Origin: an uncultured Aquimarina sp. | GTDB lineage: Bacteria > Bacteroidota > Bacteroidia > Flavobacteriales > Flavobacteriaceae | Direction of reading: 5' to 3' | NCBI GenBank assembly: GCA_947489685.1 | Contig: CANLEM010000005.1 | Span: 186,001-250,000 of the forward strand | DNA: 64,000 nt | Part shown: piece by piece, positions 49,831-57,153 of the stretch | Numbering within the stretch: the stretch's first letter is position 1 | Layout of the letters: each line of letters starts with the position of its first letter | Program-made: the position numbers and the translations under genes | The notes under the pieces: model-generated | Database searches by the model: none | Told to the model about the DNA's origin: nothing | Seen by the model: only the letters and a program-made list of their open reading frames with translations

Positions 49831-50877
49831 GTGGACGTCCAATCTCAATTATTATTTTTTTTTAGCGCTCTTGGAGCATTCAATGGGATAATAGTAGGAT
49901 TGTTTTTTCTTTTTTATGTAAAACCCAAACATAGAAGCAATTTATTTCTGGGATTATTGTTACTCGCTTTAAGCGTTCGTATTGGAAAATCAGTGTTTTA
50001 TTATTTTCATTACGATTTGGCTGATATTTATATTCAAATAGGTTTGTTCGCTTGTTGGTTTATAGGACCTCTTTTATATTTCTATGTCAAATCTGCCTTA
50101 GAAGCTGATGACTTAATCAATAGAAATGTTAATATTCATTTTGGTATTTTAATTTCATTAGGGCTTACATTATTCTTAGCTTTTCCAAGATCCAACTATG
50201 AAGTACAATGGTTAAATTTATTTATATACCTTATTTATGGTCAATGGGTAATATATGTTATAGCCGCCGGATATTTTATTTGGCAGAACTATAATAAGAT
50301 TAGACAATCTAAAAAAAGTTTTCTCTCCTTTAGATTATGGTTGTTAAGTATATACACAGGTAATGCAATAATTTGTACCGCCTTTATTACGGGTAATTAT
50401 ACTTCTTACATAGTCGGAGCCTTGTCGTTTTCTTTTATTTTTTATTTACTTGTATTGTTACTTTTCTTCGCAAAACAACGTAATAAACTTATTTTTTTAA
50501 ACCCTCAGAGACATCGTGAAAAAAGTATTAACACAGAAATTGCAGAAGTACTTATATCCAATCTGGAACAAGTAATGATAGAAAGTGAATTATACAAAAA
50601 CTCTGATATTACTTTATCAAAGGTTGCAAAAAGGCTTAACATTATACCTAATAAATTATCGTTGCTTTTAAATGATAATATGAAAATAAGTTTTTCTGAT
50701 TATTTAAATGGAAAGCGTATCGAAATGGCAAAAAAAATGATTGATGCAAACTCTAATTATTCTTTTGAAGCCATCGGCTATGACTGTGGGTTTAACTCAA
50801 AATCTACTTTTTATGCAGCTTTTAAAAAACATACAGGAACAACACCTTTAAAATATCAAAAATCAATTTTAAAATAG
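49831..50877 (+). CDS. Membrane-anchored AraC family regulator
   Basis: Seven-TM-like N-terminus; AraC HTH (FEAIGYDCGFNSKSTFYAAFKKHTGTTPLKYQK); GTG start. Confidence 0.9.
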   Translation: MDVQSQLLFFFSALGAFNGIIVGLFFLFYVKPKHRSNLFLGLLLLALSVRIGKSVFYYFHYDLADIYIQIGLFACWFIGPLLYFYVKSALEADDLINRNVNIHFGILISLGLTLFLAFPRSNYEVQWLNLFIYLIYGQWVIYVIAAGYFIWQNYNKIRQSKKSFLSFRLWLLSIYTGNAIICTAFITGNYTSYIVGALSFSFIFYLLVLLLFFAKQRNKLIFLNPQRHREKSINTEIAEVLISNLEQVMIESELYKNSDITLSKVAKRLNIIPNKLSLLLNDNMKISFSDYLNGKRIEMAKKMIDANSNYSFEAIGYDCGFNSKSTFYAAFKKHTGTTPLKYQKSILK

Positions 50878-54440: not shown

Positions 54441-55403
54441 TTATTCTTTACTTTTTGTTAATGTATCTATCAGTTTAAGCATTTCCTTTGCCAATGTATT
54501 TTCATCATCATAAACCAAGGCTTTCTTATAGGAAGTAATTGCCTTTCTGTAATCGTCTTTTTCGAAATAAGTGTTTCCTAATAAGCTATGTGCTTCAGAT
54601 TCTTCAGGAAACAATTCTACATATAATTCTGCAATATCATTACTGGCTTTATTATAATTATTTTGTTTTAAATATAGATACAGGAATTCAAAATTTGAAG
54701 GATTTTGAACATCCTTATTATTCACTTCAGACAGTTTATTAAATTGCTCAAGAGCATCTTTTTTTTGACCATTTGTAATAGAATTAATCATTTTTTCTCC
54801 AAACTGACGTTTGAAAAGCGCTATCGTTTCGGTATTGAATACTCGTGCCGATATCATAAATGTAATCCATACTTTTTCTCCTATACCCTTTTGATTTTCA
54901 CCTACATCAAAATCCAATCGATTAATTTCAAATTCTCCTGTTAGTGTAACTCTATAATTCTTCCACAAATCTAATTGCTCTCCATGCAAAAGCTTTATAG
55001 GAACTTCAATTTGCTTACTAACATCGTGTATGTGGACATCTCCAAGCATTATCAATTGACCATTTTTTTCTATTGTTTTTTTACTTGAAAAATAAATTTT
55101 TGGATGATTTTTTACATCAAAAAAGTCCTTTCCTTTTAAATGTTTATCACGCATTTCAAGCCCTGTATTAATACTATTTGTATCGATATAGATCGTTGAT
55201 GATGTATTTGTCATATTACTCTCATCGATTAAAATAGTACCTTTAATTTTATCAAATTGACCCTTGATAGGAAGTAAACCGCCAAACTTAACGCTAAATT
55301 CAATTTTAGAATGCCATCCATCTATAGGATATGCTTTAACCTGAGCATTAATGAAAGTTGAAAAACAGGCACAAAAAATTAGGATTTTTATTGTTTTAGA
55401 CAT
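54441..55403 (-). CDS. YceI domain protein with C-terminal TPRs
   Basis: YceI (YPIDGWHSKIEFSVKFGGLLPIKGQFDKIKGTI...HLKGKDFFDVKNHPKIYF) followed by TPR (SEAHSLLGNTYFEKDDYRKAITSYKKALVYD). Confidence 0.9.
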   Translation of the reverse strand: MSKTIKILIFCACFSTFINAQVKAYPIDGWHSKIEFSVKFGGLLPIKGQFDKIKGTILIDESNMTNTSSTIYIDTNSINTGLEMRDKHLKGKDFFDVKNHPKIYFSSKKTIEKNGQLIMLGDVHIHDVSKQIEVPIKLLHGEQLDLWKNYRVTLTGEFEINRLDFDVGENQKGIGEKVWITFMISARVFNTETIALFKRQFGEKMINSITNGQKKDALEQFNKLSEVNNKDVQNPSNFEFLYLYLKQNNYNKASNDIAELYVELFPEESEAHSLLGNTYFEKDDYRKAITSYKKALVYDDENTLAKEMLKLIDTLTKSKE

Positions 55404-55450
55404 GATACTTTATTTTTAAAGGTTAAAGTAAGTGCCCAATTCTAAAAAAG

Positions 55451-55480
55451 TCGCCAATACTTATAAGCATTGACTTTTTA
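55451..55480. promoter_or_regulatory. 30-bp repeated motif, copy 1 (upstream of YceI-TPR gene)
   Basis: TCGCCAATACTTATAAGCATTGACTTTTTA; 26/30 identical to copy at 56851. Confidence 0.65.
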
Positions 55481-56647
55481 TTTTTTCGATTCAGTTTTTT
55501 TTTGATATTCTTTTGGGGTCATTGAAGTGAATTTCTTGAAATAATTATTAAAAGAAGCCTTATTATTAAAACCAACTGCGTATGCTATATTTAAAAAGTT
55601 AGACTTGTTACTTTTTGACATCATCATTCTCTTAGCTTCTTCTATGCGATATTTATTTACAAATTCATTAAAGTTACAATGAAAGTGTTCATTTATAACT
55701 CTCGACAAATGATGTTTTGGTATCGATAGTACTTCAGATAAATCAATAAGTCTAATATTTGGATTAAGGTATATTTTTTCTGATTCAAAATATTCTAATA
55801 TTTGAGATTTATATTTTTGAGATAACTTTGTGTCAATCGGTGTTTTGGCGTATTTTTTTTTACTTAACATATATTTTAAATCATCACGAAATAGATATGG
55901 TTTTCTATAAGCATTTACAGCTAGAAGATATATTAAACCGGTTGATGGAAGTATGTATAAATAATCCATCCATCTTTTGTAAATATTAGAGTAGAATAAT
56001 AAATAAAAGTATAGTAGAGATGATAACATAACAAAGCCAAAGACCAAACAACAATATTTTAACCATTGTGTACGAGCTATTTTAATTTGTTGAGCAAAAG
56101 GTTTTTTGGATTTTTTTAAGTGTGTTAGATATTTTACACTAATAAATGCATAAATGCCCGCATGAATAAATTGAAGAAAAAACAATACACCATATAAATT
56201 CTGGATAGGCGTCAATCCCATGCTCGTATTCTTTATTACGGTAAGCATTCCATAAAATTTGCCTCGCTCGGGAATAGCCTCTGAAAACAATAAAGGTATA
56301 GTAATAGCAAAAATCAAAAAAGGCAAAAAATGAAATATATAAGAGGCGTAAATCTTAAACTTATCAGATATGAAAGATTTAGAATACAACAATAATAATG
56401 GGCCGATTAATAACCAGGATCCATATCGAGTGCCATAAAAGATATCAAAACTTAATTGTTCTGAAATACTTCTTACAAAAAAAAACTCGACTTGTACCCA
56501 AACCAAAAACCATATAATTGCAGATAATATGATATTAGAATAATTATGTGTTTTACCGCTTAACAAAATGAATGATAAAAGCAAGCCTTGTAAACTTCCG
56601 GCCAAAAGAATGAATGACCAAAAGTCTATTGAAATTTCTGACATCAT
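55478..56647 (-). CDS. Membrane-anchored AraC family regulator
   Basis: Seven-TM-like N-terminus; AraC HTH (FLNIAYAVGFNNKASFNNYFKKFTSMTPKEYQKK). Confidence 0.92.
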   Translation of the reverse strand: MMSEISIDFWSFILLAGSLQGLLLSFILLSGKTHNYSNIILSAIIWFLVWVQVEFFFVRSISEQLSFDIFYGTRYGSWLLIGPLLLLYSKSFISDKFKIYASYIFHFLPFLIFAITIPLLFSEAIPERGKFYGMLTVIKNTSMGLTPIQNLYGVLFFLQFIHAGIYAFISVKYLTHLKKSKKPFAQQIKIARTQWLKYCCLVFGFVMLSSLLYFYLLFYSNIYKRWMDYLYILPSTGLIYLLAVNAYRKPYLFRDDLKYMLSKKKYAKTPIDTKLSQKYKSQILEYFESEKIYLNPNIRLIDLSEVLSIPKHHLSRVINEHFHCNFNEFVNKYRIEEAKRMMMSKSNKSNFLNIAYAVGFNNKASFNNYFKKFTSMTPKEYQKKTESKK

Positions 56648-56850
56648 AATACCTTTTAAATTTTATTATTTTTTTAAAATATTTAAAATAATTGAATTTT
56701 CAAGTTATCATGCCTTGCAGAATTCAAAAAATAATTTATATCCAACCTATTGGTTTAGATGAACTCATTTTTTACTTATGAATTGCAAATAAATTTCTAA
56801 ATACTTTGGAATAGGTTTTGGTTCAAAAGAAGAAATTTAACTCAAATTAA

Positions 56851-56880
56851 TCGTCTATACTTATAAGTATTTACTTTTTA
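56851..56880. promoter_or_regulatory. 30-bp repeated motif, copy 2 (upstream of AraC gene)
   Basis: TCGTCTATACTTATAAGTATTTACTTTTTA, containing palindrome ATACTTATAAGTAT. Confidence 0.65.
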
Positions 56881-57104: not shown

Positions 57105-57138
57105 AAAATCCAATCACAGAAAGTGATTGGATTTTCTT
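57105..57138 (-). terminator. Terminator adjoining tRNA 3'-end remnant
   Basis: GAAAAATCCAATCAC...GTGATTGGATTTTC. Confidence 0.75.
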
Positions 57139-57141
57139 TGT

Positions 57142-57153
57142 CGGGGTGGCAGA
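57142..57153 (-). pseudogene. tRNA 3'-end remnant / putative att site
   Basis: TCGGGGTGGCAG = reverse complement of a tRNA 3' end (CTGCCACCCCGA); no T-loop or upstream tRNA body follows. Confidence 0.5.

Follow-up and report, generated by a model that had tools for sequence, protein, structure and literature searches.

The AraC and YceI-TPR genes and the repeated motif

In the 64,000-nucleotide stretch of DNA that was analysed (the window), a gene encoding an AraC-type regulator with a predicted membrane domain is followed on the minus strand by a gene encoding a YceI-TPR protein. The features of this region were as follows.

54441–55403, minus strand: yceI-TPR, 320 aa; Pfam YceI (5e-33) and TPR_2 (8.9e-9); proposed target
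55424–55431, minus strand: -7 position of yceI-TPR, TTACTTTA, 4/6 against TAnnTTTG, 23 bp past the palindrome
55451–55454, minus strand: conserved flank after the copy 1 palindrome, GCGA here and mostly TCG[AC] in the family
55455–55472, minus strand: copy 1, putative operator palindrome CAATGCTTATAAGTATTG, 5' of yceI-TPR; exact match to the consensus CAAYNNYTATARNNRTTG
55478–56647, minus strand: araC, 389 aa; Pfam HTH_18 (1.1e-18); clade support 100/99
56824–56831, minus strand: -7-like element TTCTTTTG, 5/6 against TAnnTTTG, exactly 23 bp after copy 2
56855–56872, minus strand: copy 2, putative degenerate operator AAATACTTATAAGTATAG, approximately 208 bp 5' of araC; proposed autoregulatory site

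The AraC protein matched PF12833 (HTH_18 / HTH_AraC, 1.1e-18) at residues 303–383. An AlphaFold model based on a 13-sequence alignment (mean pLDDT 78.5) had approximately seven long N-terminal helices (residues 9–30, 36–61, 68–93, 101–120, 147–175, 183–219 and 225–267) followed by a C-terminal double-HTH domain; the helices are predicted to form a membrane domain. PDB matches, by sequence as well as by fold, were reliable for the HTH half alone (the AraC, MarA, SoxS and GadX structures), and a fold search with the membrane domain returned weak matches of the seven-helix GPCR type (E values of at least 0.005, TM score to query of 0.3–0.4). The protein shares the C-terminal HTH_18 domain of the AraC/XylS regulators MarA, SoxS, RhaS and AraC, but its N-terminus is a predicted helical membrane domain rather than a sugar-binding cupin. 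The membrane domain also contains an invariant FYGTRYGSW stretch, a candidate sensor element.

The YceI-TPR protein has a signal-peptide-like start, a YceI domain and a C-terminal TPR region, and no ortholog was found in 68 congeners. On the far side of araC, just past a hairpin-like repeat at approximately 57109–57136, lies GTCGGGGTGGCAG (57140–57153), which we take to resemble a short piece from the 3' end of a tRNA gene; ARAGORN reported no tRNA at these positions. The AraC/YceI-TPR module is missing from congeners, and this sequence could be a trace of its earlier insertion.

A sequence-only reading of the window had described two similar 30-mers in the same orientation, at 55451–55480 and 56851–56880. 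Both were found there, 1400 bp apart and identical at 26 of 30 positions. The former overlaps the araC stop codon (55478–55480), lying 48 bp 5' of the yceI-TPR ATG (55403), and the latter is approximately 204 bp 5' of the araC ATG (56647). The perfect palindrome that had been ascribed to copy 2 held for its 14-bp core; the longer palindrome is that of copy 1, the outer arms of copy 2 being gone. When the 4,715,144-bp genome was searched with the degenerate 30-mer, allowing up to three mismatches, just the two places in the window were recovered, with no control matches; the same search within the window gave these two places and none in 100 shuffles. Between 54000 and 58500 there was one pair with at least 26/30 identity, compared to a maximum of 24/30 in 60 first-order shuffles.

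Similar copies on both sides of one gene might also be left by a duplication event, the alternative that had been put forward, or the motif might be a dispersed repeat. However, there were two copies in the whole genome, the likeness was limited to approximately 30–40 bp without extended flanking homology, and the element recurred at orthologous loci with non-conserved flanks, and both a scar and a dispersed repeat were rejected as exceedingly improbable.

Conservation of the palindrome at AraC-YceI loci

A 27-mer version of the motif was absent from 93 relatives when up to three mismatches were allowed, which gave a first appearance of no conservation until a degenerate palindrome was drawn from a genome of another genus (G167). 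This genome encodes a YceI-TPR protein 55% identical to that of the window, directly 3' of an AraC protein with 36% identity to its window counterpart. Two sequences were extracted from it by eye, CAACTTTTATAAATGTTG and CAATAATTATAAAGGTTG, one of which lies in the araC-yceI gap and the other before a second YceI gene. Their alignment with the window minus strand, CAATGCTTATAAGTATTG, gave the 18-bp palindrome CAAYNNTTATAANNRTTG, a consensus thus built from the window and G167. Related loci reduced the motif to the palindrome CAAYNNYTATARNNRTTG followed by NC(G); this, rather than the 30-mer, is its natural unit. In copy 1, eight of the nine palindrome pairs match. The outer CAA/TTG arms were invariant in the 14 sites other than copy 2, and the flank had C at position 19 in all 14 and G at position 20 in 12.

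The earlier reading had proposed conservation in relatives as a check, and the palindrome was present in the gap that separates the araC stop from the yceI start at 13 of 13 loci of the AraC subfamily. These came from 12 flavobacterial genomes of eight genera, which were all the genomes where the AraC-YceI pair was found; contig scans with the AraC protein or YceI-TPR alignment had detected no relatives, which were recovered by a separate genome search (1,844 genome look-ups overall). Eleven of the loci had played no part in building the consensus, namely those of three congeners, the second module of the window genome (C1:240609-242410) and those of seven genomes from a 400-genome family survey. 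The site was present in all 11, as an exact match in eight and with one mismatch in three; the expectation per 4-kb locus was 0.0006 exact sites and 0.012 sites with up to one mismatch. By Pfam, the proteins encoded 3' of the sites were YceI in 14 of 14 cases.

Members of the subfamily were sharply separated in the family survey, scoring at least 514 bits compared to at most 181 for all other proteins. In the tree, the 13 AraC proteins formed one clade (support 100/99) with the window AraC as its deepest and longest branch; since the subfamily members have 33–39% identity to the window protein, the operator has survived divergence to this level. Other membrane-embedded AraC regulators of the Bacteroidota, of which there are many per genome (for example at 49831–50877 of the window), have the same architecture and occupy related clades of the tree. 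The YceI-linked clade is separate from them (100/99), and it was the only clade sampled that had the palindrome.

As a control, 28 related AraC loci that do not belong to the clade were examined. None had an exact site or a neighbouring YceI gene; one of them, an outgroup locus (L050), had a one-mismatch match approximately 270 bp past araC. The 12 subfamily-bearing genomes have five to nine YceI genes each, and there was no exact site at the 12 unlinked YceI loci inspected in such genomes. When the palindrome was searched together with its CG flank (CAAYNNYTATAANNRTTGNCG) in the 400 family genomes, 22 matches were obtained: in genomes with a subfamily AraC, 11 of 11 were intergenic, whereas in genomes without one, 11 of 11 were inside open reading frames and had no good -7 element. 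The window genome had two exact palindromes, both in AraC-YceI intergenic regions. Its one-mismatch palindromes were at chance level (18 forward matches, including the two exact ones, compared to 24 in the control) and were left out of any regulon count.

Linkage by itself does not name the binder, and AraC might be a passenger beside a palindrome that is bound by another, unlinked regulator or that forms part of an alternative sigma promoter. Against another binder, the intergenic site was restricted to genomes with a subfamily AraC and, within these, to AraC-YceI loci and one site before another AraC gene, while no exact copy was seen at sister AraC loci or at YceI genes without AraC linkage. 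The -7 element described below is of the primary-sigma type (TAnnTTTG, PMC9723704), which argues against an alternative sigma factor. We consider the passenger explanation improbable.

The exception to the YceI linkage was found in a further genome (G228, C3:381562; L083:1501-1518), where a full operator with a -7 element 23 bp on had no YceI gene nearby and lay approximately 300 bp 5' of the gene for a different membrane AraC (L083:1817-2929). The targets of the operator are thus not confined to YceI, and an AraC-to-AraC cascade is possible at this site.

The other exact palindrome of the window genome (C1:241763-241780) belongs to its second AraC-YceI module (G000 C1:239109-243233; L011, L024), which has a symporter-like gene on its 5' side; a sodium:solute symporter-like gene, named from its sequence, precedes araC in three modules from the genus of the window. 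Cross-talk between the two AraC proteins of the window genome is possible.

A 396-genome survey of the phylum gave one clear subfamily member outside the family (G576), with a site that had two mismatches. The palindrome was not recognisable in two other genomes from outside the family, G839 and G844. In G839, which belongs to another Bacteroidota family, a YceI-like frame whose end is TPR-like lies after a distant AraC gene (L138), and from this case the linkage of AraC and YceI may predate the operator.

Promoter geometry and the sign of regulation

The primary-sigma promoter of the Bacteroidetes consists of a -33 TTTG and a -7 TAnnTTTG element (PMC2483708, PMC9723704). Every offset 3' of the palindrome was scored for the -7 element (PMC9723704; PMC2483708), and a single peak was obtained exactly 23 bp after the palindrome. 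At this offset 12 of the 14 sites scored 5/6, for which the chance at a given position is approximately 0.012 (0.0116), and the mean score was 4.86 of 6, compared to 2.71 or less at other offsets. The palindrome followed after 23 bp by TANNNTTG had 13 matches in 12 genomes and no control matches. These sites resemble the primary-sigma promoter in carrying TAnnNTTG, here at a constant distance 3' of the palindrome; they differ in that the -33 region is occupied by the palindrome and in that the 12 well-scoring sites read TAnn[A/C]TTG, with A or C instead of T at position 5.

With the -7 element set at -12 to -5 (PMC9723704), the palindrome would extend from approximately -53 to -36 and so abut the -33 region at a fixed spacing, a layout of the class II activator type. 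In this it resembles the AraC/XylS regulators, whose sites adjoin the -33/-35 region in a class II-like manner. The sites of MarA or AraC are asymmetric or direct-repeat sequences; the operator proposed here is an 18-bp palindrome. Copy 1 of the window was among the two weak cases: its -7 position (TTACTTTA) is poor, so that the yceI-TPR promoter may have shifted. There is an alternative, TAGAATTG, at offset 10.

The same AraC at the same operator might instead act by repression, occluding the -33 region of the yceI promoter until a signal releases it. A steric block is conceivable, since the palindrome abuts the -33 region with its RTTG end 23 bp before the -7 element. Repressor sites usually tolerate altered spacing, whereas the 23-bp distance was rigid in 12 of 14 sites, and the conserved off-consensus base (A or C in place of the T that opens TTTG) fits a weak, activator-dependent promoter. 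Since a weak promoter and an operator at constant spacing suit an activator that contacts the polymerase, we infer activation as the preferred sign and regard repression as unlikely.

The palindrome straddles the end of araC, and it was also considered as an RNA hairpin, either a terminator or a processing site between araC and yceI. This reading was rejected, as the hairpin-energy and Rfam searches were negative: the predicted energy was 0 kcal/mol at seven of 14 sites because the inner bases are unpaired, and there was no Rfam match. Copy 2 and the G228 site on C3 also precede genes that have no partner gene 5' of them, and the palindrome lies before the inferred transcription start, leaving a hairpin with a negligible probability.

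The sequence-only reading had proposed that the membrane AraC controls yceI-TPR through the motif as its cognate operator. The occurrence at all 13 subfamily loci, the rigid promoter spacing, the exclusion of a dispersed repeat and the lack of an exact site at sister AraC loci and unlinked YceI genes all argue for this proposal. The palindrome is probably (at a rough probability of 0.74) the cis-operator of a local membrane AraC one-component system, most likely one that activates the YceI gene next to it.

Copy 2, the proposed mechanism and its significance

Control of araC by its own product, also part of the earlier proposal, is the weaker half of it. Copy 2 has two mismatches to the consensus; it keeps the 14-bp core CTTATAAG and has lost the outer CAA/TTG arms. 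The -7-like element TTCTTTTG is a candidate araC promoter with a start near 56819 (background chance 0.0116), and its position exactly 23 bp after copy 2, together with the likeness to copy 1, makes autoregulation of this divergent AraC plausible, but lineage-specific. On the other side are the degeneracy of the site and the finding that no site was present 5' of araC at the other 12 subfamily loci.

Copy 2 could also be a non-functional relic or a chance near-match, with copy 1 as the sole operator. Its two outer-arm mismatches, the lack of an equivalent at the other 12 loci and its low matrix score, by which the position matrix alone did not single it out, would suit a relic. Contrary to this, the 26/30 identity to copy 1 reaches past the family consensus in the same orientation, and an element such as TTCTTTTG at exactly +23 has a chance of approximately 0.012. 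The two copies share bases that are mostly missing in the rest of the family, which would fit either joint drift with an AraC that evolves fast or a copying event at this locus. On balance copy 2 is probably functional, and a relic is the doubtful option.

In the mechanism that we propose, a membrane-embedded AraC protein with approximately seven TM helices and a cytoplasmic HTH_18 domain would bind CAAYNNYTATARNNRTTG-NCG at approximately -53 to -36, beside the -33 region of the sub-consensus promoter TAnn[A/C]TTG. On an envelope signal, AraC would most likely activate the neighbouring YceI gene in a class II manner. Of the two copies in the window, copy 1 would drive yceI-TPR, and copy 2 would be a weaker, lineage-specific second site, probably for self-regulation of araC. 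The sequence itself shows the palindrome, its linkage to this AraC subfamily and to YceI, the 23-bp spacing and the rarity of the site in the genome; AraC binding, activation as opposed to repression, the signal and what copy 2 does are what we infer.

Flavobacteria hold many membrane-embedded AraC regulators, and in the openly accessible literature we found no DNA site or target described for any of them. The same literature yielded no description of an operator for any membrane-embedded AraC of the Bacteroidota, nor of AraC-YceI linkage or a palindrome operator. An evenly balanced possibility is that these loci represent a widespread, undescribed flavobacterial envelope-sensing regulon, in which a membrane-bound seven-helix AraC binds a palindrome centred at approximately -44.5 and activates YceI lipid-binding proteins, and which was duplicated here and diverged into a second, autoregulated module driving a YceI-TPR fusion. 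Sequence alone thus assigns to a whole subfamily of membrane AraC regulators a precise putative operator, with a promoter of fixed geometry and YceI as the consistent target. The system is directly testable, and the same footprinting could decode the sister AraC clades.
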